A stretch of DNA of 43,247 nt from Anaerolineaceae bacterium (lineage in GTDB: Bacteria > Chloroflexota > Anaerolineae > Anaerolineales > Villigracilaceae). Position numbers and translations under genes: made by a program. A model generated the notes under the pieces. That model had not been told where the DNA came from. It saw nothing but the letters and a program-made list of their open reading frames with translations, and ran no database searches. Where the stretch lies: contig VFJR01000025.1 of NCBI GenBank assembly GCA_009885945.1, positions 1 through 43,247 of the forward strand. Direction: 5' to 3'. The number at the start of each line of letters is the position of its first letter. Within the stretch, counting starts at the first letter, position 1. Of the stretch, positions 1-42,885 are shown one piece after another.

Positions 1-378
1 AACTCTGCCAATCCAAAGAGATGGAAGAGTGGCAATCGTTATTCCGGTAATAACCACTAGCGATCCCAGCCCAACGGGAATAGAAATCCCTTTGGTAATA
101 AATACACGGAAAATTACCAGAGCCAGTATGCTTCCAATTGCCAATAGAACGCCATTTGTTGTGTTTCCTCTTTTGATTAATAGGGCTCCCAAAAGAGTGC
201 ACAAAAGGGCAACCGAGACACCCGTGATATCAATTAGATTGATATCTGCTGGGTAAAGGATATTTTTTATTGCGCTGCTTAAACCAAGCAGAACAACAAT
301 ACCTATGTTGGTATAAAAGGCGATGCTTGCTCGGCGTTGTTCTGCTTGCGTATTTTTAATATCGGGTTCTTCTTGCAT
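1..378 (-). CDS. Membrane sensor protein, N-terminal part (cut by window edge)
   Basis: An open frame of 126 codons starts at the ATG at 378-376 and runs off the left edge without a stop. It begins MQEEPDIKNTQAEQRRASIA and then shows four hydrophobic segments at about residues 19-38, 48-68, 75-92 and 99-117, separated by short polar turns. This is the multi-helix N-terminal layout of the neighbouring GAF receptors. An AGGA about ten bases upstream serves as ribosome binding site, and the gene lies 38 bp after the preceding GAF gene, so it is very probably the twelfth member of the array. The GAF part is outside the window, so the assignment rests on position and membrane layout only. A histidine kinase with the same type of membrane domain cannot be excluded. 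Confidence 0.7.
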   Translation of the reverse strand, partial: MQEEPDIKNTQAEQRRASIAFYTNIGIVVLLGLSSAIKNILYPADINLIDITGVSVALLCTLLGALLIKRGNTTNGVLLAIGSILALVIFRVFITKGISIPVGLGSLVVITGITIATLPSLWIGRV

Positions 379-416
379 GGCATTGGTTTCCTGATTGGCA
401 AATATTTTTTTATACA

Positions 417-2150: not shown

Positions 2151-4972
2151 TCTTTAATGTCCTGATTTTGCATCTGAATTACTACTTCAGAGCCGGGCAG
2201 GGCACGTCCAAGTTCTTCTACTGCTGTTTGCAGCACGTTTTGCATATTGATGGATGAGCCGATGCGGGATGTTACTTCGCCAATCAGCTGTTCTTTTGCT
2301 GCACGTGCTTGTGATTCGTCGAGCAGGCGGGCACTCTCAAGGGCAAGCGCCATTCGTTCTGAAACTACTTCTGTTAAGGTAATCTCGTCTTGATTCCATT
2401 CGCGATCTGTTGTTGGCGGGGTGCTTATTTGAATAATGCCAATGACTTGGCCGCGGAGCTTTATGGGCGCCACAATTTTTGATTGGGAGGTATTCGCGTC
2501 TGTGCTTTTTATTGTAATTAATTTACCTTGATTCATCACCTGATTGATTTCATCAGTGACAAGTGTTTTTGTTAATTTGGTGCCGCTGCTTAATCCCTGG
2601 TGGTATCCAGTCAACTCTTCTTGCTGAGCAAAAAGCACCCACTGTTCTTTGATAAATTGGCCGTACACTGCTTGTACTTCATTAAGCGCGTTCTGTGCAC
2701 TTTCAAATAAGCGCGCGTTTTCAATAGCTGTTGCAATTTGATCGGCAAGAATGCTTAATACTTTAATATCACTTTCGTCAAAAGCGTTGGATTTTGTGCT
2801 TTGTATATCGAGCGCACCAATTAATACGCCTCGTACAATGAGAGGGAGTGCCATTTCGGAATGAGTTTCGGATAGGTCTGGGTTATTGAAATAAGCGGAA
2901 TCAGAACCTACGTCCAGCGCAATACGTGGTTTGCCAGAAGATGTGACATTTCCTACAATACCGGTCGCGCCGACTTCAAGCCTGTGACCGCGCGCCAGCA
3001 TTCTTTGGCCCCCTGGGCTATTGGCTGCCATCAGCTGAGCAAATTGCTTTGTATCATTTAATAGAAATATGCCCACATGGTAAAAATTAAACCGTTCACT
3101 GACCAAGCGGGTGATGAGCGGGAGCAGGTTTTCTGTACGTTGCTCACTGGTAATAATATTGGATATTTCACCAACGGCTTGAAGCTCTCGTGAGCGTTTT
3201 TCACTTTGCGCGCGTGAATTTTCAAGATCAAGCGTGCGGTCTTCGACGCGTTTTTCTAGATTTTCTAAAGTTCGATTAATTTCATCTGTGACTTGGTTAA
3301 TGGCTTGCGCAAGAGCGCCAATCTCATCTTGTGTTTGAACAATTGCTTTCGCTGAGAAATTTCCTGCGGAAATTTCTTCTGCAACTAAAGATAGGGATAC
3401 GATAGGTGCTGCCACGACTGTGGTTGCCAAAAGCGAGATAATAATACTGCCGCCTATTAAAAGCAACGAAATAAAAATACTGTTTCGGGTTTGTGTTTCA
3501 ATAGGTGCGAGATGGGCATTTTCGGACTCGCGCGCAATAGCGACCCAAGGTAGTATTTTTATTGGGGTACCCACATTAATGGCTGTATCGTTTAATGAAA
3601 TTGAATATGCTTCAAAGCGCGGCTGAAGATCAATTACATTGATCGCTTGCACAACCGCAGGGTCTGCACCAGCAACCATTGTATCTTTCGAACCGGCCGG
3701 CAGGCGGTTTTTGGCTTGGAAGATCTGAAGTTCCAGATCGCTAAAATTATTATAAGATTTGAAAAGACGTTCTCGGTCGCCTGTAAATGCCACTCGTAGA
3801 TATGTCTCGCGGTCTATCACGGAGACTTGTATGGTACCGTCCTGGACTGCGGGCCGCACCAAGGTCTGTATGACTTTTGCATCAATTTCTTCCCTTAGTA
3901 TTCCTATTATTTCGCCGCTGCGATTCTTGATAGGCGCGCTAAAAAATATACTAGCTTTGCCATTTTGAAAAATAATATTGGATACATAAGGCTTATTATT
4001 TGTAAAGGGCTGTTTGAAGTAATCGTTGGCGCTTTCATCTCTTCCTTGATTTTCGCTAACGGTATCAAGAACATTCCTTCCCTTTTTATCCAGAATTGCA
4101 TACGAACGTATAAAAACAGCATCTTTTCTCTTGTTGTTCGAGAGTGTAAGGCTTGCGTTGACTTCTTCTGGGCTGCCGGCTCGAGATACTGTTGATCGTT
4201 CGATATATTCAATCAGCGGTATTTGTTTACTTTCGGAATGGATAATAATAATTTGATTATTAATGTAATTGTCAATATTACTCGCTATATTATTTGAAAG
4301 CTCTGTTAGCTGCGCATCAGCTTCTGCAAGCAGGATTTGCCTTGTGGTTGAATAGTTAATATATCCAAATATCGCGAGCGGTACTATGGTTGCGATTAAA
4401 AAACCAAGCAGGAGCTTAACGCGCAGCGGGAAAGTGCTGAATTCACGTGCGGCGACCGTCAGAAAAATAACTAAAATAACCCCTGTAAATAGGTATATAT
4501 ATACTTGATTAACAGGAATTGTAAAACTTGGCAAATATACATCCGCCAGGATAACAGCAAATCCTCCTGAAAGACCAGCCATTATTCCATTAGTTATTTG
4601 TTGGGCTGGAAGGGTGGTTATGGCGATGCTGATTATAATTAGCAGTAATGAGATGCCTTGTAATATCCCCTGCCCATCAGCAAAAACTGGAAAGGCTAAC
4701 GAAATAACAATAAGCCCCGCGATCAAAATATAAATGCCAATATCAATGCGTGACTTGTAGCATAGCCAGGCGCTTGTAAACCCTAGCAGTGAAAAAGCGG
4801 CACTAAAAATAATACTTAAATAAGAAGTTATATCGTCTTTATTTAAGAACAGAATAGACCCAATGGCTATTACCAAAAGCAATACCCCTATGCCTGCGCT
4901 GAGCGCAATCCCATTGCGCCTTCTTTTTTCAAAGTTTGCATCTGGCGAGTTGTTTGTGTTTGAAAAAGTCAT
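2147..4972 (-). CDS. Membrane dCache-HAMP-GAF sensor protein (941 aa)
   Basis: Large receptor with two kinds of input. Residues 20-175 form a bundle of five to six membrane helices. A further helix at about 185-205 leads into an extracytoplasmic double-Cache-like domain (about 210-485, with YAILDKKGRNVLDT and IFFSAPIKNRSGEIIGILRE, typical Cache strands). A returning helix is at about 498-520, followed by HAMP (521-572, TQDEIGALAQAINQVTDEI) and a coiled coil. GAF1 lies at about 610-765 (FNFYHVGIFLLND, THSEMALPL). The array linker (KEQWVLF, then GYHQG), the half GAF (IVAPIKLRGQVIGIIQI) and the tail ending SEVVIQM follow. No catalytic output is present. It lies 18 bp after a substrate-binding lipoprotein gene, which suggests the lipoprotein presents a ligand to the Cache domain; this is inference. 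Confidence 0.9.
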   Translation of the reverse strand: MTFSNTNNSPDANFEKRRRNGIALSAGIGVLLLVIAIGSILFLNKDDITSYLSIIFSAAFSLLGFTSAWLCYKSRIDIGIYILIAGLIVISLAFPVFADGQGILQGISLLLIIISIAITTLPAQQITNGIMAGLSGGFAVILADVYLPSFTIPVNQVYIYLFTGVILVIFLTVAAREFSTFPLRVKLLLGFLIATIVPLAIFGYINYSTTRQILLAEADAQLTELSNNIASNIDNYINNQIIIIHSESKQIPLIEYIERSTVSRAGSPEEVNASLTLSNNKRKDAVFIRSYAILDKKGRNVLDTVSENQGRDESANDYFKQPFTNNKPYVSNIIFQNGKASIFFSAPIKNRSGEIIGILREEIDAKVIQTLVRPAVQDGTIQVSVIDRETYLRVAFTGDRERLFKSYNNFSDLELQIFQAKNRLPAGSKDTMVAGADPAVVQAINVIDLQPRFEAYSISLNDTAINVGTPIKILPWVAIARESENAHLAPIETQTRNSIFISLLLIGGSIIISLLATTVVAAPIVSLSLVAEEISAGNFSAKAIVQTQDEIGALAQAINQVTDEINRTLENLEKRVEDRTLDLENSRAQSEKRSRELQAVGEISNIITSEQRTENLLPLITRLVSERFNFYHVGIFLLNDTKQFAQLMAANSPGGQRMLARGHRLEVGATGIVGNVTSSGKPRIALDVGSDSAYFNNPDLSETHSEMALPLIVRGVLIGALDIQSTKSNAFDESDIKVLSILADQIATAIENARLFESAQNALNEVQAVYGQFIKEQWVLFAQQEELTGYHQGLSSGTKLTKTLVTDEINQVMNQGKLITIKSTDANTSQSKIVAPIKLRGQVIGIIQISTPPTTDREWNQDEITLTEVVSERMALALESARLLDESQARAAKEQLIGEVTSRIGSSINMQNVLQTAVEELGRALPGSEVVIQMQNQDIKE

Positions 4973-4990: not shown

Positions 4991-5968
4991 CTACGGTAAG
5001 GGTAGGAATGTTGAGTCGAGCATTGCGGCAAAATCTGGCAATGTTACCAAGCCGCCGGATAGCAACAGGTAATTTCCTGTGCGTTGTGCAGTGTCATAAA
5101 TAGAACCTGCACTTCTGTTTTGAAAAAGAGCTACATTGTCTGCAAGAGTCATTACTTTTAGGTCAGGGTCTGCGCCAGTTTCGGCTGACGTAACGCCTAA
5201 ATATTTTGCTGCAATCTCGCTGGTTTCTTGCGGATGAAGCAGTCTGTAATCGACCGCTTCGTACCAAGCCTTTAGGAAGTTTTTAATATCATCTGGGCGT
5301 TGCTTAACCACCGATTCTCGAAATGCAATTGTATCTGGGAACAGTCGCTCGGTTCTGTCGGTGGGGTAGATTATGCGATTTCCGTTTTCCAATGCCTGGC
5401 TGGTAAATGGCTCCCAAACAAAAACTGCCTGAACTTGGTTGCTCGCAAGAGCGGCAATACTGTTTGCAGGGTCCAGTTCAGTAAGGAATACATCGCCTAA
5501 ATTCATATTAACGCTTGCCAGCATTTCAGAAACCAATACCTCATATTGCGTTCCTACTAATACCCCGATCGTTTTTCCTTTGAGTAAGTTAATAGACGTA
5601 TACTCTGGCCGCGCGACAATGGGCATAAAGCTTCCATCGTCAGAAATTCCGACAACTTTCATGTTTGTATGGCGCTCAATATTCATTACATCACCGACCG
5701 CAATTAACGCAGCATCTATTTGTCCGGCGGCAAGGTCCGGAAAAGAATCTGAAAATATTGGGTAATATACCGGCTGAACCAAAACTCCATACTTTTCAAA
5801 AAAACCTTTTTCTTGAGCTACGAGCAAAGTGTAATCTCCCCACCAATAAGTAAACTCCACTAATAAAGGTTTTTGAGAGCTCTCAGATTGCTGTGATTCG
5901 GCGCAAGAACTTAAGGAAAGAATTGCACAAAATATTAAGATAATGATCAATAGTCTTTTTCTTTTCAT
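4991..5968 (-). CDS. NMT1/SsuA-like substrate-binding lipoprotein (325 aa)
   Basis: Periplasmic-binding-protein fold of the NMT1/THI5-like and SsuA/TauA type, which bind small organic ligands for ABC importers. The N terminus is a lipoprotein signal: basic MKRKR, a hydrophobic stretch, and lipobox L19-S20-S21-Cys22. Family features include the first strand VEFTYWWGDYTLLVAQEKGF, a DLAAGQIDAALIAVGDV segment, LLKGKTIGVLVGTQYEVLV, and VQAVFVWEPF in the second lobe. Length is normal for the family. No permease or ATPase gene is nearby; the gene sits inside a run of GAF receptors, 15 bp after one and 18 bp before a dCache-HAMP-GAF gene. I infer a ligand-capturing co-receptor rather than a transporter subunit. 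The ligand cannot be read from the sequence. Confidence 0.88.
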   Translation of the reverse strand: MKRKRLLIIILIFCAILSLSSCAESQQSESSQKPLLVEFTYWWGDYTLLVAQEKGFFEKYGVLVQPVYYPIFSDSFPDLAAGQIDAALIAVGDVMNIERHTNMKVVGISDDGSFMPIVARPEYTSINLLKGKTIGVLVGTQYEVLVSEMLASVNMNLGDVFLTELDPANSIAALASNQVQAVFVWEPFTSQALENGNRIIYPTDRTERLFPDTIAFRESVVKQRPDDIKNFLKAWYEAVDYRLLHPQETSEIAAKYLGVTSAETGADPDLKVMTLADNVALFQNRSAGSIYDTAQRTGNYLLLSGGLVTLPDFAAMLDSTFLPLP

Positions 5969-5983
5969 TATGTACCTTTGTGG

Positions 5984-7975
5984 TTATCTTTCTGTGATCA
6001 TGTCTATTGCCGCAGGTTCAATTTGAATTAAGACCTCAGTGTTTCCAAGTGTCTTGCTTAGCTCTTGTGCGGCTGTCTTTACAATAGAATCGAAGCGGGT
6101 CGACGAGCTGATCTTGCTTGTTATATCAGATGTGATGCGCTCTATGTTTGCGCGCCTTTGGCTGGTTTGCAGGAGTATGGCGGCTTCCAGCGCTAAAGAG
6201 AGTCGCCCGGCGATCACCTCTGCGATTTCAGTTTGATCTTCCTGCCAAACTTGATCTGAAGGTACTTTTATGCTCAATACGCCGATACTTTTTCCGCGCA
6301 TGCGTATGGGTATGGCGAGACTGGTGTTATTGTTATCATTTTTGAGGATGACAACGTTATCAGTTTTGATTGCATCCTGCACTGATCGATATTGCAAAGG
6401 CTCTTCAAGCCGAACAATATCTGCTCCCGATATTTTGTACCCAAAGCGTTTCTCGCTGGTCTGCATGACCTTCCACGCGTCTTTGACATATCCTGTTACA
6501 GCGTTTTGGGCTTCAGTAAGAAGACTTTGCGCTTCGACAAACGATCTTGAGTTTTGTATAGCGACGGATACTTGATCTGCCAGTGTTGATAGTACTTCGA
6601 TATCTTCTTGGGTAAATGCGCCGTCAATTTCACTTTGTACATCCAATGCTCCAATGACTTGCCCTAAAATTCTTAAGGGAAGCGCCATTTCTGAGCGGGT
6701 GGTGGGCAGGTCTGGATTATCAAAAAATACCGCATCTGCGCCTGTATCAAGCGCGATACGCGGGCTGCCCGTACCTGTTGTGTAGCCTACAATACCTACT
6801 TGACCTACGCGTAATTTATGTTCACGTAGTAACATGCGTTTTCCACCATTGCTGTTTGCAGCGCTAAGAACCGCGAATTCACGGCTGGTGTCTAATAAAA
6901 ATACGCCTACATGATAATACCCAAACTGTTGACTGATCACTTCTGTAATGCGGGGCAAGAGCGAGTTAAGATCTTGCACGAGCGCAATTTCGCGTGAGAC
7001 CTGGGCGATCGCCTCAAACAGACGAGTGCGCCTTTCATTTTGTTTTACAGAATTTTCCATCCGAGCTTCACGCTCTTGAATTTGTTTTTCCATTCCTTTG
7101 ATGGTTAATAGATGGCGAATTGACGTGTTTTTGATTGACTGTCCTATGATTGCAATCTCGTCTTTGCCTACAATTTCAACATCTTCCTGATTTATTCTAT
7201 TTGCAATATTGTTACTTAAATTTACAAGCTCGTTTAAGCGGTTGGAGAATGAGCTTGCGATTGTGCGGGTGATGACAAGAGTTGTAAAGATTAAAATTAT
7301 GAACAAGATGATAATGCTTGTTTGTGAGGTTTTATATGCGCTCAACGCAGCTGTATATGAAAGCTCTTCATATTTTAGGTTGATTTCGAGCAGTTCATTA
7401 ACTAAGATTTGCGTTCTTTGTGATAAATTTGCAATATCTAACTCGATTTGGGTAAGTGGAGTATTTAGGAGAAGAGCAAGCCGATAATCTTGCTCTTTGA
7501 TAAGCAAATCTCCGTAGATAGCACGCAGAGCCTGAATAGTAAGAACTTCGCGTTCTTGCAGACTGGTGTTTCCTGTTTGCACAAGCAGATTGGTGAAGTT
7601 TGGGTCTCTTGTGGTTTGCCATTCATTTTCGTATTGTTTAATAATTAAATTTACATCTTGTTCTTGCCCAACAGTGAATTGTTCAATCACATTTTTGTCT
7701 TTTTCATGCTTCATTTTTTCTATTTGTGTTTGCGTGCCATTCAATAGAACTTGTATTTCTTGAAGTTTTAGAGTTGGGCGTACTCTTTTTGAATGAATGC
7801 TGTTGATGTGAAATTGTGATGTAATCAATCCTTGAATCGCAACAAAACTAAGCACTACTATGCAGAGAATAGACAGGACGGTAATTAAATTAAATTTTTG
7901 ACCCGTCATCAGGGTCGCAAGATATTTTTGCCACCGTGATTTTTGTGGAAGCGTTGAGAATTTAGAAAAGGTCAT
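5984..7975 (-). CDS. Membrane helical-bundle/HAMP/GAF sensor protein (663 aa)
   Basis: Receptor laid out like a chemoreceptor input: one membrane helix at about 30-50, a mostly helical extracytoplasmic segment at 55-215 rich in Gln, Glu and Leu (reminiscent of four-helix-bundle sensors), a second helix at 219-239, and a HAMP-like stretch to about 293 (VGKDEIAIIGQSIKN). A coiled coil leads to GAF1 at about 330-478 (FGYYHVGVFLLD, PRIALDTGADAVFF, TRSEMALPL). The linker has Trp501 and Gly512-Tyr513, the half GAF covers about 553-605 (AIPIRMRGKSIGVLSI), and the shared tail ends TEVLIQI near 652. It has no kinase, cyclase or methyl-accepting signalling tip, so it is not a chemotaxis receptor. It lies 9 bp after the preceding GAF gene and 15 bp before the first substrate-binding gene. 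Confidence 0.88.
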   Translation of the reverse strand: MTFSKFSTLPQKSRWQKYLATLMTGQKFNLITVLSILCIVVLSFVAIQGLITSQFHINSIHSKRVRPTLKLQEIQVLLNGTQTQIEKMKHEKDKNVIEQFTVGQEQDVNLIIKQYENEWQTTRDPNFTNLLVQTGNTSLQEREVLTIQALRAIYGDLLIKEQDYRLALLLNTPLTQIELDIANLSQRTQILVNELLEINLKYEELSYTAALSAYKTSQTSIIILFIILIFTTLVITRTIASSFSNRLNELVNLSNNIANRINQEDVEIVGKDEIAIIGQSIKNTSIRHLLTIKGMEKQIQEREARMENSVKQNERRTRLFEAIAQVSREIALVQDLNSLLPRITEVISQQFGYYHVGVFLLDTSREFAVLSAANSNGGKRMLLREHKLRVGQVGIVGYTTGTGSPRIALDTGADAVFFDNPDLPTTRSEMALPLRILGQVIGALDVQSEIDGAFTQEDIEVLSTLADQVSVAIQNSRSFVEAQSLLTEAQNAVTGYVKDAWKVMQTSEKRFGYKISGADIVRLEEPLQYRSVQDAIKTDNVVILKNDNNNTSLAIPIRMRGKSIGVLSIKVPSDQVWQEDQTEIAEVIAGRLSLALEAAILLQTSQRRANIERITSDITSKISSSTRFDSIVKTAAQELSKTLGNTEVLIQIEPAAIDMITER

Positions 7976-7984
7976 TTGTTTACC

Positions 7985-9703
7985 TTATTTCCTGTCAGTA
8001 TCTTCTAGTTGAATAGCAACTTCTGCGCCGGGGATAGTGCGTGCCATTTCTTGGATGGTTGTTTGCAGCAGATTGTCTATGTCTAGCATGCTGCTAATTT
8101 TTGTAGAAATTTCGCTGATAATTTTTTCTTTTGATGCTCTACGCTGAGTTTCTTCCAGTAGAGATGAGTTTTCTAGAGCAAGGGATGTGCGTTGTGCCGC
8201 TGCTTGAATCATATCAATTTCATCTGTATCCCATTCGTGCAGGTCGGGGGTGTTGATATTGATGATGCCAATGACTTCATCTCGGATTTTGATCGGCACA
8301 GATAGAGTCGATTTTTTGCCTTGAGTTGACGAGATCATTCTGCCTTCTTTCATAGCAGTTTGAATTTCTGGCGAGTCTATTTGTTCTAGTGTGGGCGTAG
8401 GCATGGTTCCAGTGAAACGGTATCCAGCCCCGAGCTTGTTTGTTGAAGCGTTTTTCCAAGTCTCTATCAAATAGTTTCCCATAAACATTTGGCTTTCAGA
8501 AATGGCTGTTTGCGATTGTCTATAGAGTTGCGCGTTGCGAATAGCAATCGCAACTTGATCGGCTAAAGTAGTAAGAAGTTCAATATCATCTTGAACAAAG
8601 GCATTTTCTTCTGTGCTTTGCACATCCAATACGCCAATAAGTTTGTTGCTGATTTGAAGGGGGAGTGCAACTTCAGAGCGTGTTCCTTGCAGGTTTGGGT
8701 TGTTGAAGTACGTAGAGTCTGTCCCTGTATCCAGCGCGATGCGCGGTATACCTGTGCTGGCTGTATACCCAACGATACCAACTTCTCCAACTCGAAGGCG
8801 GTGCCCATTCGCAAGCATTTGTTGCCCCCCAACACTATTTGCCGCGCTGAGAATGGCGAATTGCTTGGTTTCATCAAGCAGAAAAATCCCGACGTGATAA
8901 AAGCCAAAGCGATCGCTAATTACTTTGGTAATATTTGGCAAGAGATCGCTTATATCTTGTAAGGATGCGATCGCGCGCGAGACCTGCGATATAGCCTGAA
9001 ATTGACTGGCTCGCCGTTCGTTGATCTCATTGGCTATTGCCAGCGCTGCGGTGCGGTAGTCCACACGTTTTTCAAGCGAGGCTTGTAATTCAAGCAATTC
9101 CTGGTTTGTGCTTATTTGGACCTGTTCATTTGAGCGCGCTTCAGACACAGATTGTTCGAGGCGTGTCATCATTAAGTGTAAAACGAAAGACATTATTAAA
9201 ATTAAGACACCGGAAATAACAGCGTCATCTAGTTCTGTTTTTTGCGACATGGTAGATGGAGTTAAACCAGCAAGGTCAAAATAATATACAACTTCAATAG
9301 CAAAGATTGTCAGCGGCGTAAAAACAAAAATTGATTTGCGGCGGTTTAATAAAACACTAATAATTATAATTAATGAATATGCCTGCATGGAAATATCGTG
9401 CGCACCGTTAGCTGACACTGCAAGTATTGTGACTGCAGCAAGCAACCCGATCGGCACAATTATTTTTGCCATTACCAGGCTGCCCAGTAAAACCAAGATG
9501 AATGCTGTTATTTCCAGAGCAAGGGTAATACTCAATGTTGTAAATGCCAGTGGGTTGAAGGTGCCTGGAATGAGTAATCCGCTTACTAATAATAAAATAA
9601 GCAAATTGCCAACGATGGAGAAAATAATAATATTCCGCACTAGTTTTGCGAATCTGGGGTCATTATCTTCCGGGTCGCTAATAAGACTGATCAAATTATT
9701 CAT
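7985..9703 (-). CDS. Six-TM membrane GAF-domain sensor protein (572 aa)
   Basis: The frame is open from a TTG at 9733, but I chose the ATG at 9703: it overlaps the preceding stop as ATGAATAA (8 bp), begins MNNLISLISDPEDNDP, and has a GAG about nine bases upstream. Five to six membrane helices fill residues 20-180. A coiled coil (LEKRVDYRTAALAIANEINE) leads to GAF1 at about 250-395 (FGFYHVGIFLLDETKQFAIL, PRIALDTGTDSTYF, TRSEVALPL). The linker carries Trp416 and Gly427-Tyr428. The half GAF (LSVPIKIRDEVIGIINI) and the tail ending GAEVAIQL complete the array pattern. There is no output domain. It is close in layout to the 577-, 561- and 576-aa members, which suggests old duplications within the array. 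Confidence 0.88.
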   Translation of the reverse strand: MNNLISLISDPEDNDPRFAKLVRNIIIFSIVGNLLILLLVSGLLIPGTFNPLAFTTLSITLALEITAFILVLLGSLVMAKIIVPIGLLAAVTILAVSANGAHDISMQAYSLIIIISVLLNRRKSIFVFTPLTIFAIEVVYYFDLAGLTPSTMSQKTELDDAVISGVLILIMSFVLHLMMTRLEQSVSEARSNEQVQISTNQELLELQASLEKRVDYRTAALAIANEINERRASQFQAISQVSRAIASLQDISDLLPNITKVISDRFGFYHVGIFLLDETKQFAILSAANSVGGQQMLANGHRLRVGEVGIVGYTASTGIPRIALDTGTDSTYFNNPNLQGTRSEVALPLQISNKLIGVLDVQSTEENAFVQDDIELLTTLADQVAIAIRNAQLYRQSQTAISESQMFMGNYLIETWKNASTNKLGAGYRFTGTMPTPTLEQIDSPEIQTAMKEGRMISSTQGKKSTLSVPIKIRDEVIGIININTPDLHEWDTDEIDMIQAAAQRTSLALENSSLLEETQRRASKEKIISEISTKISSMLDIDNLLQTTIQEMARTIPGAEVAIQLEDTDRK

Positions 9704-12650
9704 TACTATTCTCGTTTTTACGAAACTGTACAACCACCTCAGAGCCGGGTAAGATGCGCCCGATTTCGGCAGCCGTAGATTGAAGGATGTTATCTTTGCT
9801 AATAAAGGAACCGATTTTGGAAGTTATTTCGCCGATAATTCGTTCCTTATCTGCTCGTTTTTGACTATCAAATAGCAGACGGGCATTTTCTAGTGTAATC
9901 GCCGCGCGTTCCACAATAGATGATGCCATCTCTAGCTCGTCATCTGTCCATTTTCTTTCGGTGATAGATTGGATGGTGAGTACTCCAATAACCTCTCCGC
10001 GCAGTTTTATTGGAATCGTCATCCTTGATTCTGTTGCATCGGCCTTAAGTGGGGAATTGGTTATTGAATTATTTAATTCAGAAGGGCTTATTTTTTCATG
10101 CAATATTGTAGTTTTTGTAGTGGAATGACGCACGCCAAATATTTTTTGCGAATTTGTGTAGCGACTCCAGCCTCTATGTATTGCTTCAGTGGATAAGGCA
10201 TCGGCTTCTTTGAGTGTTCTTTCTGTTTGTTCATATAAACGCGCATTTACGATTGCGATGCTAACTTGGCTTGCGAGGGTATTTAGAACTTCAATATCTT
10301 CCAGCCCGAAAGCGTTTGATGTGCGGCTTTGGATATCTAAAACACCAATGATTTCTGTTGTTGCAAGCAGAGGCAATGCCATTTCAGAGCGGGTTTCTGG
10401 TAAGTCAGGGTTATTAAAGTAAGTTGCGTTAGCTCCCGTATCAAGTGCGATTAGCGGTTTTTTTGTGGAGGCAACTGAGCCTACAATACCAAGCACGCCT
10501 ATCTTTAATTTATGCTTACGTTCCAGCATGCGTTTCCCCCCAGCGCTGTTTGAGGCACTTAATATAGCAAACTCTTGATTTTCGTTGACTAAGAATATAC
10601 CTACATGATAAAAGCCAAATTGTTCGCTGATTACGTTTGTGATCGCAGGAAGTAATTCCTCTATTTTTCTGGTCGAGCTGATCGATTCTACGGCTTTTGA
10701 AATTGCTTCAAATTGAGATGCGCGGCGTTGATTTTTCTCGAGAGCGATGACCAACTCGGCAGATCGATCTGCAACACGTTGTTCTAAGCCGGCTAGTAAA
10801 TCTTTTATCTGCTCGGTCATATTATTGAAGGCATTTGCGAGGCGTCCGAGTTCATCGTCAGTCTCGTACACTGCCCGAACATTTAAGTCGCCCGCTGCAA
10901 TTTGCTCTGAGGTTTGAGTTAATTCTTTGATTGGTGCGGATATAACATTGCCAACGCCTAAACTTGTAAGGATTGCTACAAGAAAAAGTGTCGCAAGAAT
11001 AATCGCACTATAAGTGAGCGTTGATGAAGTTTCAATATTTTTTCTCTCACGGGAGCGTTCTTCGGCAATGTTTAGCTCACTTACTGGAACGAGTGTGACT
11101 AAACTATATCCAATATTTTTGATTGGAGAATATACTACATACGTATCGATGTTATTGATAATGACTTTGCTTATATTGGTTTCGCCAGACATTGCTTTGG
11201 ATATAGCTATTTGAAAAGGAATTGGACCTTTGCCTAGGATTGACGCTTTGGTCTCTTCGCCAGATGCAAGTATTTCAGGTCTCATGCTTAGCATTTCATA
11301 GGCTTGAGCAGGCATATGAATAATATGAGATTTTTTATCGATCAATATGCTGTATCCAGTTGTGCCAACTTGGATGTTGTCTATGGCATTGCCTATTTCT
11401 TTTAGTTTTAAGTCTGCTGCCATTACGCCTGTAAATCTGTTGTTTATATACACTGGAGAAGATACAGTAACAACTAACCCGTTCCCGGCCGGATCTTGAT
11501 AGGGGTTTGTCCATCTATATATTTTTTCTGGATTATTTTCAGGAGTTGCTACCGTAAAGAAATTTTGGGTCGTAATATCAAAATCAGCCGGAACAACATT
11601 TGCAATGCCTATGTTAGGGTAATAGGTTGTTATTCCTGATGTTGTTAAATAATAGACAGCGATGGCTGACGAATATTTTTTTAGTACTCCATACGCGTTG
11701 ACATCAATGCGCGCTGTGGTATTTAAGTCTGCAATGATGGCATCTGTAAGCAATACTGTAGATGGGATGAATACGGATGCAGAGTCTGATGGCAGTGAAC
11801 TATATTGACCCCCCGATAGTTGGATTAAATTTGTGCGGGCATCCCAATACAAGTCTGAATTTAATATAGATGCTTTTTTTTCAATTTCAGAACGGTAAGA
11901 CGCAAGTTGGTTTATATCTGTGCTTATAGATTCAAGCTGGTTATTTATTTCCGCGCTATTTTTTTCAGAAATAGCGATTAGGCTATTTTTAATATTCTGT
12001 TTTTCGCTTTCGCCAAGATCTTTGGATAAATTTTCTGCAATTGTATTTGAGCGAAAAAATATAAAAGTTGACGAAATGATAAGAGAGATTCCGCTCGTAA
12101 CCACAATCCCCAGAATAATTTTTGTACGGAGTGCGAAGGTTGGGAATTGACGAACAGCAAAGTATACATACAAAACTATTAATGTAATTCTGAATATCAA
12201 ATTGCTGGTGGGGGGGGGAGGGCGATTGATGGAACCAGTGCTGTCAATGATTGCAACAAGAACAGCAGTTGTTATGCTAACAATCAACCCTTGCCATAAA
12301 GATTTGCGAGGGAAAATCGACAACGAAATACTTCCAATAATAATTAACGACCCAATGACGCTTGAATAGACAAGTTCTGTAAAGATAATAGTGCTTAATA
12401 TAAACTGTAAGGCTACGCCATAGATCATTGTCCACCCAGCAACAGTATATTTCCCTTTCCGCGAAAACCAAAAAGATGCTAAACAAGTTGCCAGTAAAGG
12501 AGTAATTAATACTAATTGGTCCGTATTGTTTTGTAAAAAAACGAATACACCAGCAACAATTATCATAAGAATTGTTGAGGCAATAATGAAATTTGTCTCT
12601 TGGGCTTGCCTGTTAATTGTTTTACCCTGGAGTGGTGTAATTGAATTCAC
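9696..12650 (-). CDS. Membrane dCache-HAMP-GAF sensor protein (984 aa)
   Basis: Starts at a GTG at 12650-12648, with AAGGA seven bases upstream, 2 bp after the preceding stop. Residues 20-170 hold five to six membrane helices; a helix at 178-199 leads to a long dCache-like region (about 205-535, with IAVYYLTTSGITTYYPN, GLVVTVSSPVYIN, TGVMAADLKL and SILIDKKSHIIHMP). A helix at 547-568 precedes HAMP (569-620, TDDELGRLANAFNNMTEQI). GAF1 is at about 660-810 (FGFYHVGIFLVNE, LIALDTGANATYF, TRSEMALPL). The linker has a conserved Trp (HRGWSRY) but Gly-Val in place of Gly-Tyr. The half GAF and the tail ending SEVVVQF follow. Residues 144-147 are four prolines encoded by a run of nine cytosines on the coding strand, a possible slippage site. 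No output domain is present. Confidence 0.9.
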   Translation of the reverse strand: MNSITPLQGKTINRQAQETNFIIASTILMIIVAGVFVFLQNNTDQLVLITPLLATCLASFWFSRKGKYTVAGWTMIYGVALQFILSTIIFTELVYSSVIGSLIIIGSISLSIFPRKSLWQGLIVSITTAVLVAIIDSTGSINRPPPPTSNLIFRITLIVLYVYFAVRQFPTFALRTKIILGIVVTSGISLIISSTFIFFRSNTIAENLSKDLGESEKQNIKNSLIAISEKNSAEINNQLESISTDINQLASYRSEIEKKASILNSDLYWDARTNLIQLSGGQYSSLPSDSASVFIPSTVLLTDAIIADLNTTARIDVNAYGVLKKYSSAIAVYYLTTSGITTYYPNIGIANVVPADFDITTQNFFTVATPENNPEKIYRWTNPYQDPAGNGLVVTVSSPVYINNRFTGVMAADLKLKEIGNAIDNIQVGTTGYSILIDKKSHIIHMPAQAYEMLSMRPEILASGEETKASILGKGPIPFQIAISKAMSGETNISKVIINNIDTYVVYSPIKNIGYSLVTLVPVSELNIAEERSRERKNIETSSTLTYSAIILATLFLVAILTSLGVGNVISAPIKELTQTSEQIAAGDLNVRAVYETDDELGRLANAFNNMTEQIKDLLAGLEQRVADRSAELVIALEKNQRRASQFEAISKAVESISSTRKIEELLPAITNVISEQFGFYHVGIFLVNENQEFAILSASNSAGGKRMLERKHKLKIGVLGIVGSVASTKKPLIALDTGANATYFNNPDLPETRSEMALPLLATTEIIGVLDIQSRTSNAFGLEDIEVLNTLASQVSIAIVNARLYEQTERTLKEADALSTEAIHRGWSRYTNSQKIFGVRHSTTKTTILHEKISPSELNNSITNSPLKADATESRMTIPIKLRGEVIGVLTIQSITERKWTDDELEMASSIVERAAITLENARLLFDSQKRADKERIIGEITSKIGSFISKDNILQSTAAEIGRILPGSEVVVQFRKNENSNE
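12210..12218. repeat. Poly-G tract of nine (C9 on the coding strand)
   Basis: Nine consecutive G on the plus strand lie inside the 984-aa receptor gene, where the coding strand reads CCT followed by nine C, giving Pro144-Pro147. Runs of G or C this long stand out in this AT-rich sequence. A gain or loss of one base by strand slippage would shift the frame after residue 147, before the Cache and GAF domains. Confidence 0.9.
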
Positions 12651-12652
12651 AG

Positions 12653-14962
12653 CTATTCCTTATTATCAAATTGAATTAAGATTTCGGAACCGCCCAACAT
12701 TTTTTCTAACTCTTCTGCGGTTGTATACAGAATATTTTCGATTTGTTGCATGCTGCCAATTCGGTTGGATGCACTTGAAATGGCCTGTTCCTTGTTTGCG
12801 CGTTTTTGGCTGTCTTCTAGCAAACGCGCATTTTCTAGAGAAAGAGCCGCGCGTGTTGCAACGGTTTGCGCTAAATTGATACTATCTTCAGTCCATTCAT
12901 AATTTGGATCGTTTTGTTCCACACCAATAATGCCTACTACTTGATCTAATACCATGAGAGGCACAAGCAGGGTGTTTGCTTGGTAATATTGATTATTTGT
13001 ATCATTAAGCAAGATGGGTTTTCCATTTTGCAATTGCATTAATACATCTTTTGAAATTAAATGATCTAGTTGTTTCGTTTGTGAACCATCGTATTCGAAA
13101 CCGTTCGTGTTGCGGTTGCGAGACGTTTTTTGCCATGCGGCTTGTGTTTGGGCAAGGCGGGCTGTGTTCAACTCATTGAGAGTGGCTTCTAAGCGTTGTA
13201 ATAACTGGGCATTTTCAAGAGCGCCAACAATTTGGTCAGCTAATAATTGCATTGTTGTTGCATTGTCAGCGCTAAAAGATTTGGATTTGGTCGATTGAAT
13301 ATCTAGCACACCTAGGATGTTATTTCCGCTTCGCATAGGGAGTGTAATTTCTGAGCGGGTGTCCGGCAGAATAATGTTTTTGATATAGGTAGTATCGTTT
13401 TCTACATCCTCGGCAACATAGTATTCGCCAGTTCGAGATACAAAGGCAATAATACCCGGCCCATTTATTTTGATTCTATGGTGATTTTCAACCATGAGTT
13501 GACCCGCGTTGCCGCTTGCGGAGCGGAGATTTAAATACTCCCCCCTTTGGTCTATCAGGTAAATAGCAACATGATATGCGTTGAATCGCTCCCTAATTAA
13601 TCCCACGGTTTGATTAATGAGCGCATCAACATTACGGATTGCATTAATATCACGCGCAACTTCTGACGCGATTGCAAGTTCTATTGATCTGCGCTCTAAT
13701 GTTAGAGTGCGTTCGCTTATGCGCTGTTCCAAATCGGCTAAGTTAGTTTGCAGTTGGTCTGTCATTAAATTGAAAGTGGATGCTAGCGAGCCAATTTCGT
13801 CAGTGCTTTCTATCTTTGCACGTATGTTTAAATTTCCCTGAGCAACAATATTTGCTGTTTCAGTTAAGTGGAGAATTGGCAAAGTAAAGGTACGTGACAA
13901 TAATGTTGCCAACCCTGTTATGAGAAGAGTTGCTAGTAAGACGAAAATTATATTCGTGCGGATTTGGTTCTGGCTATTTGCCAAAAAAAGCGATGATGGC
14001 TGGCTGTATGCAATTGCCCATGGGCGTGTCTGCAAAAATGCGACTGCCACAGCGTCGCTGCCGCTTTCATCCGGGTTAATATCTACGGTGAAAAAAGACT
14101 GCTCTTTAGCATTTTTTAAAGCTAAGTCAAAATTTGCTAAATTCGAAGCTTGCTGTTCCGCTGTTGTGCCTTGTAGTCTTTTTTGATTGACAGCTACAAT
14201 AAATTGCTCTGGACTCAACGGGACAACAGATTTTTGGATAAGATCTGGACGCTCGTTATCGGCTATTCTTATATTTAATTCGTCTAATAGTGTGATTCTG
14301 ATATTTTTGTTTGTACTGGCACTTTTAATGATAATTTGCTGAAGGATTGATGAATTATATTCAGCCCGTAAAATACCAAGAGTTTCTCCGCTGTCACTTC
14401 TTACCAGTCCGGCAAAAAATATAGTTGTTTGAGCTAGATCGTTATATACTACAGCTGAAACTGTAGGCAAGTTTTTGTCCAGTGCGCTAATAAAATATTC
14501 ATATGTTGATTCGTTTTTGCCTATATTTGCTTCTGCACTGTCAAGTAATATGTTTCCGTTTAAATCCACTAAGGCATATGAAATGATATTTACAGTGTCT
14601 TTTCCAGTTAATTTGATTAGAGTATTTTTAGCATGTTCTTGCGCCGATCCGTCTATTCTTTCTGATGGCGATAAGGATAGGTATTCGATAAAATCTTTAA
14701 ACTGAGCTTCAACCCGAACACCATCCAGCGTGTTGGTGATAAAAGTATCAAGGCTGTTTGTAGTTTGCAGCGCACCAGATCGAATGTTTGCTTCTGCGGC
14801 TTGAAGTATGGCTTGCTGGGTTTGAATGGTATCTTTAATGGCGATTCCAATCAAGGGAATTAAAGAGATCATTAGAATGAAAAGAGTTAAGCGTCCACGA
14901 ATGGATAGGTTACTTATCCATCGAAATAATCCACTATTTGATTGACCGCTTTTTTGATTCAT
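12653..14962 (-). CDS. dCache-HAMP-GAF sensor protein (769 aa)
   Basis: Classical receptor topology without the extra helix bundle: one membrane helix at about 25-42, an extracytoplasmic dCache-like domain to about 325 (SYALVDLNGNILLDSAEANI, IFFAGLVRSDSGETLGILRA), a second helix near 333-355, then HAMP (STDEIGSLASTFNLMTDQL) and a coiled coil. GAF1 at about 445-595 is the most divergent of the short members: FNAYHVAIYLID, but YYVAEDVENDTTY where others have PRIALD, and TRSEITLPM. The linker keeps the Trp (AAWQKT) and Gly-Phe. The half GAF (LVPLMVLDQVVGIIGV) and the tail ending SEILIQF complete it. The gene lies 23 bp after a substrate-binding lipoprotein gene, mirroring the arrangement at 4972-5968. 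Binding of that lipoprotein to this Cache domain is inference. Confidence 0.9.
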   Translation of the reverse strand: MNQKSGQSNSGLFRWISNLSIRGRLTLFILMISLIPLIGIAIKDTIQTQQAILQAAEANIRSGALQTTNSLDTFITNTLDGVRVEAQFKDFIEYLSLSPSERIDGSAQEHAKNTLIKLTGKDTVNIISYALVDLNGNILLDSAEANIGKNESTYEYFISALDKNLPTVSAVVYNDLAQTTIFFAGLVRSDSGETLGILRAEYNSSILQQIIIKSASTNKNIRITLLDELNIRIADNERPDLIQKSVVPLSPEQFIVAVNQKRLQGTTAEQQASNLANFDLALKNAKEQSFFTVDINPDESGSDAVAVAFLQTRPWAIAYSQPSSLFLANSQNQIRTNIIFVLLATLLITGLATLLSRTFTLPILHLTETANIVAQGNLNIRAKIESTDEIGSLASTFNLMTDQLQTNLADLEQRISERTLTLERRSIELAIASEVARDINAIRNVDALINQTVGLIRERFNAYHVAIYLIDQRGEYLNLRSASGNAGQLMVENHHRIKINGPGIIAFVSRTGEYYVAEDVENDTTYIKNIILPDTRSEITLPMRSGNNILGVLDIQSTKSKSFSADNATTMQLLADQIVGALENAQLLQRLEATLNELNTARLAQTQAAWQKTSRNRNTNGFEYDGSQTKQLDHLISKDVLMQLQNGKPILLNDTNNQYYQANTLLVPLMVLDQVVGIIGVEQNDPNYEWTEDSINLAQTVATRAALSLENARLLEDSQKRANKEQAISSASNRIGSMQQIENILYTTAEELEKMLGGSEILIQFDNKE

Positions 14963-14985
14963 AATGACCTTGTTTAAATTTTGAA

Positions 14986-15963
14986 TTACGGCAAAAAGCC
15001 GGGGTTAATAAATTTATTGATATCAGGTGCTGAACGTAAACTGCCATTGGAAATAAAGAAATCTGTGTAAAGCTGTGCAGCATAATAAAGAGATGTTGAT
15101 GTGTTACTTTGGTTGAAAAGAACTTTATTGTCTTCCAAGTTTTGTAGCTTAATACCATCCAGTGAAATCTCAGACGGATCAATTCCGAGTTGGGCGGCGG
15201 CGGCGGCGTTGCCGTCATTTAAATTGCTTAGCCAATACTCTACTGCTTTAAACCAGCCTTTCGTAAACCCTTTAACAGCCTCTGGGTTTTCTCTTGCAAA
15301 AGAACCGCGCACTGCAATTACATCAATGATCAATCCAGGGGTGTCCGAGCTTGAAAATAGTATCTGGTTTCCATCTGCTTTTGCTTCGCTGACATACGGT
15401 TCCCAAGTGTGAACTGCGTCTAATTCTCCACTGCGTAGTTTTGCGGGACCTTCTGATGCATCCATATTAACAAATGTAATATCTGCTGGCTGTATATTAT
15501 TATTTTTTAACACTGTAGTAACGAATAATTCTCCAAAGCCGCCTATGTTGGTGCCAACTTTCTTGCCTTTTAAGTCGGCTATCGAAGTGATAACTGGATT
15601 TACTAAAACTGCATCTCCGCCAGCCGATTCGTCGGATGACATAATTACGTAGAAATCGTCATTTGTTTGCGTTAGTACGATTACATCTCCAACGGAGACA
15701 GCAATGATGTCATATTTTCCAGCTAAGAAATCCGCCATGAGCGCGTCGGTGTTCTCTGGTCGTCGTGCATCTAAAATTATATTTTCAGCAGCGTAAAACT
15801 CTTTTTCGTTTGCGATTAGAGCAGGGTAGTATCCCGCCCAGTAATCAAAGCCAAAATGAATGGTAGTGGGTTCTGCTGGAACGGACTGCCGGCTGATACA
15901 AGAGCTCAATAAAGCACTAAGGATTGTAAACATAAAAACTAAATATTTCAATTTTGTATTCAT
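14986..15963 (-). CDS. NMT1/SsuA-like substrate-binding lipoprotein (325 aa)
   Basis: Second substrate-binding lipoprotein of the array and the same length as the first. It has a signal with lipobox L19-S20-S21-Cys22, then IHFGFDYWAGYYPALIANEK, DFLAGKYDIIAVSVGDVIVL, IADLKGKKVGTNIGGFGELF and LDAVHTWEPYVSEAK, all typical of NMT1-like proteins. The two proteins share this skeleton but are clearly diverged, so they probably bind different ligands. A short (GCC)5 stretch encodes alanines in NAAAAAQLG near the C-terminal third. No transporter permease or ATPase lies near. It is 28 bp after a six-TM GAF gene and 23 bp before the 769-aa dCache receptor. A sensory role is inferred from this context. 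Confidence 0.88.
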   Translation of the reverse strand: MNTKLKYLVFMFTILSALLSSCISRQSVPAEPTTIHFGFDYWAGYYPALIANEKEFYAAENIILDARRPENTDALMADFLAGKYDIIAVSVGDVIVLTQTNDDFYVIMSSDESAGGDAVLVNPVITSIADLKGKKVGTNIGGFGELFVTTVLKNNNIQPADITFVNMDASEGPAKLRSGELDAVHTWEPYVSEAKADGNQILFSSSDTPGLIIDVIAVRGSFARENPEAVKGFTKGWFKAVEYWLSNLNDGNAAAAAQLGIDPSEISLDGIKLQNLEDNKVLFNQSNTSTSLYYAAQLYTDFFISNGSLRSAPDINKFINPGFLP

Positions 15964-15991: not shown

Positions 15992-17677
15992 TTAAGCACT
16001 GCCGTTGGCAGTAGTATCTAATTGAATAAATGTACGAGTAGCACCTAGAGTGCGGCCTAATTCTTCAATTGTAATTTGCATAATTCGATCAAAGTCTGTG
16101 GAAGAACTAATCGTAGCTGAAAGACTCGAAATCATTTGTTCCTGGTGGGCACGCCGCCCGGCGTCTTCAAACAAACGTGCGTTTTCAAGCGCGAATGCGG
16201 CACGGTCAGAGATTGTTTTTACAAGAGAAATTTCGTTGTCACTCCAGTCGCGATTGGGATCATCAGCTTGAATATTGATGATGCCAATAATTTGATCCCG
16301 TATCCTGACGGGCACAGATAATGTTTGTTTATTTTGGTCTATATCAAGCACAAAATCCTTCGTGTCAAATTTCTGTTGAGCACTTGCTTCTAGATATTCG
16401 ATTTTCTGAAGTGACCCATCCGGCTTGAATGAATATCCGCTATTTTCGTCTTTACGGGAAATTCTTTTCCAATCCTGTTGGCTTGCTCGAATGTAGCCAC
16501 TTAGGGCATCTTGAATCTTTTCAAATAACTGTGCATTCTGAATTGATGTACCTACTTGATTCGCAAGAGTACTTAAAATATCTATATCTTCATTTGTAAA
16601 AGCAGATGCTTGAGTGCTCTGTACGTCCAAAACACCAATAATTTTGTCGCCAATCTTTAGGGGAAGTGCAACTTCAGAGAGGGTGTTTGGTAACTCCGGA
16701 TTCTGAAAGTATGCCACATCAGCTTCCACGTCTAATGCAATACGCGGACTTCCTTGTTGTCCAACATAACCGACAAGGCCTTTTGCGCCAACTCTTAACT
16801 TATGCCCGCGTGCTACAAGTTGTTTTCCGCCGTCGCTATTTGCTGCGCGCAGAACCGCATATCCATCATTGTTAATAATAAATACGCCAACATGGTAATA
16901 GCCAAATTTTTCACTAATCAACCTTGAAATTAGAGGAAGCAGTTTTTCCATGCTTTGCTCTAATACAATGGCTTGTGAGATTTCTGCAATAGCTTGAAGC
17001 TGCGCTGCACGAACAATAGCCTGCTGGCTGGCATTTTCAAATTGATGGGTACGTTCTGTTACGCGGCTTTCAAGGGTTGTGCTGAGAGTCTGTAAATCCT
17101 GATTGGATTGTTCAAGTTCCTTTATTCTTAAAAATTCTAGGCTGTTTCTGTAATTTGCCAGTAAAAAAAGAATTCCGCTGATAGTGCTTATTAATCCTAA
17201 TGGTCCTCCTATGTTGTCAGGCAGAGGAATGCCAAATAAAGGGAGAAGCAATGTGGCAAATACGATCAAGCCTATTAGTAAAAAATTTTCCCATCCGTTA
17301 AGGATAGCATTGGCAAAGATTAATCCAAGCGGAATATAAAATAATAGTGTTACTCGAATTTCTCTTTGACCTACAATAATGTTAATAAATGCAGATGAAC
17401 AAAAACCTATGATGAAAAGGAAAGCGCCAAGATTGTAATATTTTGTTTTGGTAATTATATATGCAGTGAATGAGATGAGGAAAGGAATAATAAAAGTGAC
17501 CAATGCTGCTTTTGTATCACGGTTAATAATGTAAGTACTAAATGCGCCGATGAGCAAGAAGGCACTTAAGGCGAGACTTAAAGACGATGAAAGTCTCGCC
17601 TTTCTTTGATCTGCTATTTTTGTTAGCGAAGGGTGATGAGTGATTAATTGATTAAAAAAAGCGGATATTCTCTTCAT
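15992..17677 (-). CDS. Six-TM membrane GAF-domain sensor protein (561 aa)
   Basis: The N-terminal 190 residues contain about six membrane helices (for example LALSAFLLIGAFSTYII and LLFYIPLGLIFANAIL). A coiled coil (LEQSNQDLQTLSTTLESRV) leads into GAF1 at about 225-385 (FGYYHVGVFIINNDGYAVL, PRIALDVEADVAYF, TLSEVALPLKIGDKIIGVLD). The linker includes QQDWKRISRK and SGYSF, keeping the Trp and Gly-Tyr pattern. The half GAF (LSVPVRIRDQIIGIINIQ) and a shared tail ending ATRTFIQL finish the protein. No output domain. It is 11 bp after the preceding gene and 28 bp before the second substrate-binding gene. Confidence 0.88.
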   Translation of the reverse strand: MKRISAFFNQLITHHPSLTKIADQRKARLSSSLSLALSAFLLIGAFSTYIINRDTKAALVTFIIPFLISFTAYIITKTKYYNLGAFLFIIGFCSSAFINIIVGQREIRVTLLFYIPLGLIFANAILNGWENFLLIGLIVFATLLLPLFGIPLPDNIGGPLGLISTISGILFLLANYRNSLEFLRIKELEQSNQDLQTLSTTLESRVTERTHQFENASQQAIVRAAQLQAIAEISQAIVLEQSMEKLLPLISRLISEKFGYYHVGVFIINNDGYAVLRAANSDGGKQLVARGHKLRVGAKGLVGYVGQQGSPRIALDVEADVAYFQNPELPNTLSEVALPLKIGDKIIGVLDVQSTQASAFTNEDIDILSTLANQVGTSIQNAQLFEKIQDALSGYIRASQQDWKRISRKDENSGYSFKPDGSLQKIEYLEASAQQKFDTKDFVLDIDQNKQTLSVPVRIRDQIIGIINIQADDPNRDWSDNEISLVKTISDRAAFALENARLFEDAGRRAHQEQMISSLSATISSSTDFDRIMQITIEELGRTLGATRTFIQLDTTANGSA

Positions 17678-30266: not shown

Positions 30267-30272
30267 AGTTGA

Positions 30273-31613: not shown

Positions 31614-31631
31614 ATTTACTTCTCCGTGTAA

Positions 31632-40957: not shown

Positions 40958-40993
40958 AAAAACTGGACGAGATAAAAATCTCGTCCAGTTTTT
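40958..40993. terminator. Bidirectional rho-independent terminator
   Basis: A perfect 15-bp stem (40958-40972 with 40979-40993) around the 6-base loop TAAAAA. The A-rich foot on one side and T-rich foot on the other give a U tract in both directions, so it can stop rsmA (plus) and the receiver/GGDEF gene (minus). It overlaps the stop codon of the latter. Confidence 0.9.
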
Positions 40994-41846: not shown

Positions 41847-41861
41847 AGGGATCGCCTGTGG

Positions 41862-42497: not shown

Positions 42498-42507
42498 TTG
42501 GACTCCG

Positions 42508-42879: not shown

Positions 42880-42885
42880 ACCAAC

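Follow-up and report, generated by a model that had tools for sequence, protein, structure and literature searches.

What do binding proteins of an importer family do when their genes stand directly before receptor genes and no transporter gene is near? The question is raised by the stretch of Anaerolineaceae DNA analysed here (the window), which is the entire contig C205 (43,247 bases) of a 3.43 Mb genome in 209 contigs, and in which two genes for NMT1-family lipoproteins each precede the gene of a dCache-HAMP-GAF membrane receptor. From sequence comparisons we consider it likely that the two lipoproteins are transporter-free, ligand-presenting co-sensors and that the receptors are optional inputs of a multi-receptor GAF operon whose members share one kinase. 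This operon runs on the minus strand from position 27763 to the contig start as a single tight unit, with intergenic gaps of -38 to +28 base pairs (bp), and encodes two single-domain response regulators, 11 complete GAF receptors, two NMT1-family proteins of 325 amino acids (aa) each and one truncated receptor. A first reading made from the letters of the window (the sequence-only reading) had singled out two lipoprotein-receptor pairs with gaps of 18 and 23 bp, and we confirm their coordinates within this one operon. The pairs are made up of the following genes (GAF′ denotes a shorter GAF-like segment):

14986..15963, minus strand: binding protein 1, an NMT1/SsuA-type lipoprotein (Pfam NMT1/NMT1_2, AlphaFold, lipobox at Cys22)
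12653..14962, minus strand: partner receptor 1, dCache (about residues 49-324)-HAMP-GAF-GAF′, 769 aa (HAMP and GAF by Pfam, dCache by model); 23 bp behind binding protein 1
4991..5968, minus strand: binding protein 2, an NMT1/SsuA-type lipoprotein (Pfam NMT1/NMT1_2, lipobox at Cys22)
2147..4972, minus strand: partner receptor 2, extra N-terminal hydrophobic segments-dCache-HAMP-GAF-GAF′, 941 aa (Pfam; hydrophobic segments by eye); 18 bp behind binding protein 2

We propose that each lipoprotein would bind a small extracellular solute, which to judge by the fold is most likely a taurine- or sulfonate-like anion or zwitterion, that the loaded protein would dock on the dCache ectodomain of its downstream partner receptor, and that the signal would then pass through HAMP into the receptor's GAF-GAF′ rod. 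Both lipoproteins match Pfam NMT1/NMT1_2 (their SsuA family match is below the family cutoff) and are 31% identical to each other. The lipobox cysteine, C22, is present in 23/23 aligned relatives and near-invariant in a 26-row set that includes proteobacteria. The AlphaFold model of binding protein 1 (predicted local distance difference test score, pLDDT, of 94.2) has TauA and SsuA as its closest solved folds, and we take the NMT1/SsuA-family fold of both lipoproteins to be the Type II binding-protein fold.

The dCache-HAMP-GAF architecture assigned to the receptors by the sequence-only reading was borne out by Pfam for 2147-4972 (dCache at 45.9 bits against a cutoff of 45, HAMP and GAF) and by Pfam together with a structural model for 12653-14962, where the Pfam scan returned HAMP and GAF and no dCache match. 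In the AlphaFold model of the latter (mean pLDDT 85.4), residues 49-324 superpose on the DctB sensor domain (3by9) with a Z score of 24.2 and a root-mean-square deviation of 2.7 over 252 residues, by which modelled criterion the ectodomain is a dCache. PctA and CtaA show the same fold at a Z of about 21, identities to the three proteins being 12-16%. DctB binds its ligand directly, and the PctA and CtaA entries are ligand-bound structures that likewise indicate direct binding, as opposed to the partner binding protein proposed here. LuxQ is absent among the best 50 structural matches listed for the receptor. The Foldseek and VIA match lists are dominated by dCache and GAF matches, and we therefore base no claim on the GAF′ segment on them. 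By Pfam, no HisKA, HATPase or other kinase domain occurs in any receptor of the window; ten receptors, i.e. all but one with four GAF stretches, end in a canonical GAF, the GAF′ segment and then a helical tail (one of them modelled). The pairing is qualified by a third dCache-GAF receptor (9696-12650), which has no binding protein before it.

The sequence-only reading had asked whether homologous pairs recur in other genomes, and they do. Relatives of the binding proteins were searched at E <= 1e-20 in 150 genomes of the same family, an Anaerolineales-type group with few cultured members, and 40 of these genomes (the window genome included) encode one. The 60 loci taken cover 61 of the 63 matches outside the window genome, the two weakest being left out, and the gene map, which gave priority to profile matches, holds 67 binding-protein genes, four of them from the window genome. 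Forty-six of the 67 lie in GAF arrays, 45 with a downstream gene on the contig, and a dCache-type receptor is encoded immediately downstream in 41/45 and after one intervening gene in the other 4/45. Among the 41 immediate cases, 40 receptors match a custom Cache profile and that of L071:5826 has a Pfam dCache; the receptor adjoining L071:9519 has a broken frame. The gap between binding protein and receptor has a median of 27 bp (n=43) and is at most 60 bp in 37/43.

Since the custom Cache profile was derived from the window's own receptors, the count was repeated with Pfam on 37 of the 45 downstream genes (complete, longer than 500 aa) and 38 of the 44 upstream genes. Pfam dCache_1 was found in 36/37 downstream receptors vs 4/38 upstream genes, and HAMP in 37/37 vs 7/38 (Fisher p about 1e-15, a statistic that ignores relatedness). 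The sole dCache-negative downstream receptor must be the window's own 12653-14962, because Pfam finds no dCache there. One upstream gene, L071:6862-8775, which has a Cache by the custom profile, was excluded as it doubles as a downstream gene; its inclusion would bring the upstream count to about 5/39. No kinase domain is among the 14 Pfam families found across the 37 downstream receptors. In a further set of loci (L123-L161) a Cache receptor lies within 1.2 kb of 36/42 binding-protein frames; loci L123-L153 are mostly on the same contigs as the first set and were not counted as independent.

Where a gene intervenes between binding protein and receptor, it is in three loci (L040, L046, L047) a same-strand gene of 262-287 aa, of the Cyclase family in the two that were scanned (L040, L046) and lipoprotein-like and of similar size in L047, and for L043:17364 a second NMT1 protein. 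The latter locus thus has tandem NMT1 proteins ahead of one dCache-GAF receptor (L043 16314-18371). A Cyclase-family (PF04199) gene stands directly behind the binding protein in L040 (9721-10584), L046 (8191-8979) and L092 (2106-2918); in L040 and L046 it has a lipoprotein-like start and is followed by the dCache receptor, and its product might be a third extracellular component.

The binding protein also changes together with the ectodomain that it would contact. On tree distances, for the 24 arrays having all parts (24 of the 45 pairs), binding protein and partner dCache ectodomain co-vary with an r of 0.85 (leave-one-out 0.84-0.90), vs 0.65 for the GAF end of the same receptor, 0.60 for the upstream receptor and 0.61 for the ParA-type ATPase of the array; with 43 pairs, two of which have kinase partners, r is 0.82, a value that 0/1000 permutations reach. 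A profile of the partner-type ectodomain (window sequences left out, threshold 100 bits) recognised 45/45 partners, which are mostly its training set, and only 2/90 receptors, both in genome G007, in ten binding-protein-free arrays, which were picked for long contigs and not randomly. By these profile counts, the presence or absence of a partner-type receptor tends to go with that of a binding protein.

The same order of genes is found where the output is a histidine kinase. In the two same-family loci L041 and L042, a dCache-HAMP-HisKA-HATPase kinase follows the binding protein at a distance of 9 and 6 bp (dCache at 52.0 and 39.3 bits, cutoff 45), and these two binding proteins are sisters of the clade of window protein 1 (98 in the Shimodaira-Hasegawa-like approximate likelihood ratio test). 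In seven further loci (L085, L088, L091, L096, L097, L098, L090) the next gene downstream encodes a PAS-type HisKA-HATPase kinase, whose single-Cache matches are weak at best. In four proteobacterial or verrucomicrobial loci (L154, L157, L158, L159) the binding-protein gene overlaps by 4 bp with that of a HAMP-HATPase protein (dCache bits 48.1, 36.3, 21.5 and 31.7, respectively). The six pairs of L041, L042, L154, L157, L158 and L159 thus share with the window the binding-protein family, the gene order and a dCache-HAMP receptor, in which dCache passes the cutoff for L041 and L154 and falls short of it for L042, L157, L158 and L159; they differ in having HATPase in the receptor chain and HisKA in 4/6, as ordinary two-component sensors do.

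In a 68-row tree of the binding proteins, 56 rows form a sensor side: 44 from arrays, two from kinases with dCache, eight behind regulator genes (six with a scanned kinase downstream), L090, which is followed by a kinase, and L092, which is followed by the Cyclase-family gene. Binding proteins without receptors, which the sequence-only reading had regarded as speaking against its proposal, do exist among relatives in the form of permease-adjoining genes; yet all five such rows lie outside the sensor side.

Taken together, conserved adjacency, ectodomain co-variation, joint near-absence and the homologous histidine-kinase pairs give good support to the predicted role of the lipoproteins as ligand presenters. 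Several observations weigh against it. The partner-type profile reaches 100 bits in 20/216 other GAF proteins of the mapped loci; these, as well as the two receptors in G007, have no adjoining binding protein, so that partner-type dCache receptors of this sort may bind their ligands unaided. The 45/45 count is partly circular, the profile having been trained on the partners; the independent count is that made with Pfam. Co-variation bears on contact only indirectly. Joint transfer can also make neighbouring genes co-vary, for which the upstream neighbour is a partial control. Among the four loci with overlapping genes, dCache is above cutoff only in L154 and HisKA present only in L154 and L159. 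Half of the eight loci outside Anaerolineae (L155, L156, L160, L161) show no receptor partner, the binding protein of L155 following an OmpR-type output domain at the locus end. Finally, two array binding proteins (L043:17364 and L071:5826) sit on long branches beyond the sensor side of the tree, and the branch that delimits this side has a support of 92, under the 95 required for a star.

One alternative is that binding protein and receptor merely hitch-hike in one operon and sense independently, without contact. Such hitch-hiking would account for the partner-type ectodomains that lack an adjoining binding protein and for the three relatives in which one other gene separates the two; moreover, operons keep their order for many reasons, and it is the entire array that is conserved. 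On the other hand, the order of binding protein and receptor persists where a histidine kinase takes the place of GAF as the output, as it does in other phyla, and partner-type receptors are kept in only 1/10 of the arrays without a binding protein. We therefore regard independent sensing as unlikely.

A second alternative is that the binding proteins serve an ABC importer encoded elsewhere, their place in a sensory operon merely co-regulating uptake. By fold and family the two proteins belong with importer binding proteins, BPD_transp_1 (permease) matches number 21 in the genome, and some relatives, e.g. L074 and L084, sit beside a permease and an ATPase. The sequence-only reading, which had asked for orphan permease or ATPase partners in the genome, had noted that no transporter is nearby, and this holds: the Pfam scan of 26 window proteins shows neither a permease nor an ABC ATPase, all 21 permease matches lie on contigs other than that of the window, and no cognate permease and ATPase were found in the operon, including its continuation on contig C133, or in the gene neighbourhoods listed for the array loci. 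The genome encodes five NMT1 proteins, and the other three (on contigs C57, C21 and C81) each have a permease and an ATPase of their own nearby, for which reason importer use was rejected as the leading explanation, although importer parts might be shared. In addition, 5/5 permease-context tree rows are outside the side that holds the 54 sensor-context rows, and the co-variation of the binding protein is with the dCache ectodomain. Service to a distant importer is thus improbable, and a co-sensor role remains our preferred interpretation.

The other members of the operon, in order of transcription, are as follows:

27380..27763, minus strand: single-domain response regulator, the operon's first gene (Pfam Response_reg)
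26947..27387, minus strand: single-domain response regulator, with an 8-bp overlap with the preceding gene (Pfam Response_reg)
23042..26929, minus strand: 1295-aa HAMP receptor that contains four GAF stretches and no kinase domain (Pfam)
21107..23026, minus strand: membrane GAF receptor without kinase domain (Pfam and inspection of the sequence)
19435..21144, minus strand: MASE11-GAF receptor without kinase domain (Pfam)
17689..19419, minus strand: membrane GAF receptor without kinase domain (Pfam and inspection of the sequence)
15992..17677, minus strand: membrane GAF receptor without kinase domain, adjoining binding protein 1 upstream (Pfam and inspection of the sequence)
9696..12650, minus strand: dCache-HAMP-GAF-GAF′ receptor without adjoining binding protein (Pfam dCache 48.3 bits, cutoff 45)
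7985..9733, minus strand: membrane GAF receptor without kinase domain (Pfam and inspection of the sequence)
5984..7975, minus strand: GAF receptor with a weak 4HB_MCP-like sensor (below cutoff), adjoining binding protein 2 upstream (Pfam)
417..2150, minus strand: membrane GAF receptor without kinase domain (Pfam and inspection of the sequence)
1..417, minus strand: truncated receptor, first 139 aa, with an open frame at the contig end (continues on contig C133, locus L122)

Regulator genes form the start of the operon in mapped relatives as well, and counterparts of the four-GAF receptor, of about 1290-1300 aa, occur in several of them. At the other end, the last 109 bases of the window's operon strand are identical to the first 109 of contig C133, and genome-wide this 109-bp stretch is found at these two contig ends only. 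Contig C133 continues with the rest of the truncated receptor (dCache-HAMP-GAF), a ParA-type ATPase, a hybrid histidine kinase and a PALP-REC fusion. The kinase, of 1307 aa, comprises three GAF stretches, PAS, HisKA, HATPase and two REC domains, with H and G1 boxes. The sequence-only reading had called the receptors kinase-less, which is true of each receptor and not of the system: the apparent lack of a kinase is an artefact, because the contig stops within the operon, and a kinase-free system was rejected on finding the kinase on C133. A GAF-kinase and PALP-REC end is likewise seen in eight further-mapped relatives with binding proteins, ParA being outside or unlabelled in some of these stretches. 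In the ten genomes without a binding protein, GAF receptors, hybrid kinase and PALP protein are present in 10/10, ParA is labelled in nine and was located by a ParA search in the tenth (G027), where the kinase frame probably runs over it, and the two leading regulators are labelled in 9/10, G077 showing one. The ParA-type ATPase has an AAA_31/CbiA match and, near its N-terminus, the sequence KGGVAKT, a deviant Walker A motif. It is found at E <= 1e-60 in 123 of the 150 family genomes, and a class-wide draw of 121 genomes gave seven matches at 1e-75, six of them from the family of the window genome.

The receptors, without a kinase of their own, would be optional input subunits of a family-specific operon with about 6-12 GAF receptors, in a frame that opens with CheY-like regulators and closes with the ParA-type ATPase, a hybrid GAF-(PAS)-GAF-HisKA-HATPase-REC kinase and PALP-REC. 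It could also be imagined that they bypass the operon kinase, e.g. by titrating the CheY-like regulators or binding a second messenger, and so have a kinase-free output, as might be suggested by the absence of kinase domains from the window receptors and by the two stand-alone regulators that open the operon. Given that a hybrid kinase with H and G1 boxes ends the operon here, and that one ends it in 10/10 sampled arrays without a binding protein, we find such a bypass hard to credit. Least of all do we expect that the NMT1 proteins are not sensors but act outside the cell as enzymes or scavengers with the Thi5/DszB fold: the structural matches of binding protein 1 do include Thi5 and DszB, but these rank below TauA and SsuA, and a lipobox and a receptor pairing are ill-suited to a cytosolic enzyme.

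On the reading that the receptors share the operon kinase, they most likely assemble with each other and with the kinase via related GAF′ segments, so that many inputs would converge on one kinase. A profile of the receptor tail matches the kinase N-terminus (residues 96-208) with an independent E-value of 1.9e-19; it matches other GAF segments of the kinase too, e.g. 250-357 (5.4e-17), which weakens the case, and the resemblance is therefore not a specific docking signal. Docking between like GAF segments of receptors and kinase is offered as a suggestion only. Of 18 distinct kinases, 15 (16/19 rows) begin with a basic motif resembling MPKKxKIxKRLDKLF; the variants KRLNNLY and KRINDLF occur in L045 and L071, in which the kinase has no labelled ParA next to it. 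Known ParA ATPase activators, and TlpT, the proposed activator of the cluster-positioning PpfA, have short, positively charged N-terminal extensions, according to the part of PMC7993993 drawn on here. By eye, the kinase motif resembles such peptides, which makes it a candidate ParA-activating peptide; through the kinase the receptor cluster may be linked to ParA, which would perhaps position the receptor-kinase cluster. As in PpfA-TlpT (same part of PMC7993993), a ParA-type ATPase gene lies beside those of sensory proteins, with a short basic N-terminal peptide here on the neighbouring kinase; the proposed activator there is a chemoreceptor, whereas the candidate here is a histidine kinase. 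A wider picture, which we put forward tentatively and short of expecting it to hold in full, is that of a second sensory array independent of methyl-accepting chemotaxis proteins (MCPs), CheA and CheW, in which 6-12 GAF-GAF′ receptors, some fed by transporter-free binding proteins, are co-assembled via GAF′ with a soluble hybrid kinase and distributed by ParA, the kinase N-terminus serving as the activating peptide. A relative of MCP chemotaxis was considered; the genome assembly has no match to MCPsignal (PF00015) in a scan that was positive in 7/14 control genomes.

Two further observations come from contig C133. At L122 7151-8965, after the hybrid kinase, a PALP-family enzyme is fused to a response-regulator domain, here and in relatives. 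Past the array, L122 11734-19491 encodes a corrinoid protein, two MttB-type methyltransferases and a pterin-binding enzyme, which may hint at methylated amines as inputs.

The window holds three further gene groups outside the operon. Directly upstream of the array, 27900-34649 encodes TPR-S, SLATT_1 and TIR-WD40 proteins in a row, a trio that resembles pieces of a TIR-type conflict or defence system; PADLOC gave no match for the TPR-S and SLATT_1 proteins and, for the TIR-WD40 protein, TIR-type matches and one HEAT/ARM-named match. At 40992-42894 there are consecutive Roadblock/LC7, V4R and response-regulator (weak GGDEF) genes, and at 36300-37631 a gene for a Matrixin-type metalloprotease bearing TSP3 repeats.

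Receptors that respond to binding proteins have precedents. LuxP-LuxQ is a sensor kinase system activated by a binding protein, LuxQ having a double-PAS domain, and the MCP arrays of chemotaxis receive binding-protein input, e.g. from maltose-binding protein to Tar. Akin to the system proposed here, such arrays have many receptors, some of them fed by binding proteins, that converge on one kinase and CheY-like regulators, as they apparently do here; they differ in being built of MCPs and CheA, as opposed to GAF rods and a hybrid HisKA kinase. The sections of PMC9602780 used here describe loaded binding proteins that stimulate chemoreceptors, sensor kinases, cyclic-di-GMP enzymes and Ser/Thr kinases, and count about ten characterised cases of a binding protein with a sensor kinase, some of these binding proteins doubling as importer parts. 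The proposed mode of action is for this reason already known. In BctC-BctE (same sections of PMC9602780), a loaded extracytoplasmic binding protein likewise acts on the periplasmic domain of a receptor. Binding protein and receptor are neighbours here as in BctC-BctE and LuxP-LuxQ, and the ectodomain here is of dCache type too; however, BctC belongs to a transporter according to those sections, whereas the window proteins have none nearby, and the receptor here is kinase-less, ends in GAF-GAF′ and is one of many that share a single hybrid kinase. The sequence-only reading had thought the pairing new, which holds for the kinase-less partner and the shared-kinase operon and not, in view of PMC9602780 as far as used here, for binding proteins acting on receptors. 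What sets the present case apart is a transporter-free NMT1 clade, a kinase-less GAF receptor as its partner and the shared-kinase operon. A literature search over titles and abstract openings, thin on subscription journals and preprints, returned no description of this operon or of an NMT1 protein acting on a receptor.

A clade of binding proteins that is tied by gene order to receptors, be they GAF-rod proteins or histidine kinases in their output, offers a clean set in which to look for the docking surface and the ligand code. The family-specific operon in which the clade is found looks like a many-receptors-one-kinase system in a genome where no MCPs were found, and, if the coupling is real, it would be a second example of array-type signal integration, comparable with chemotaxis.

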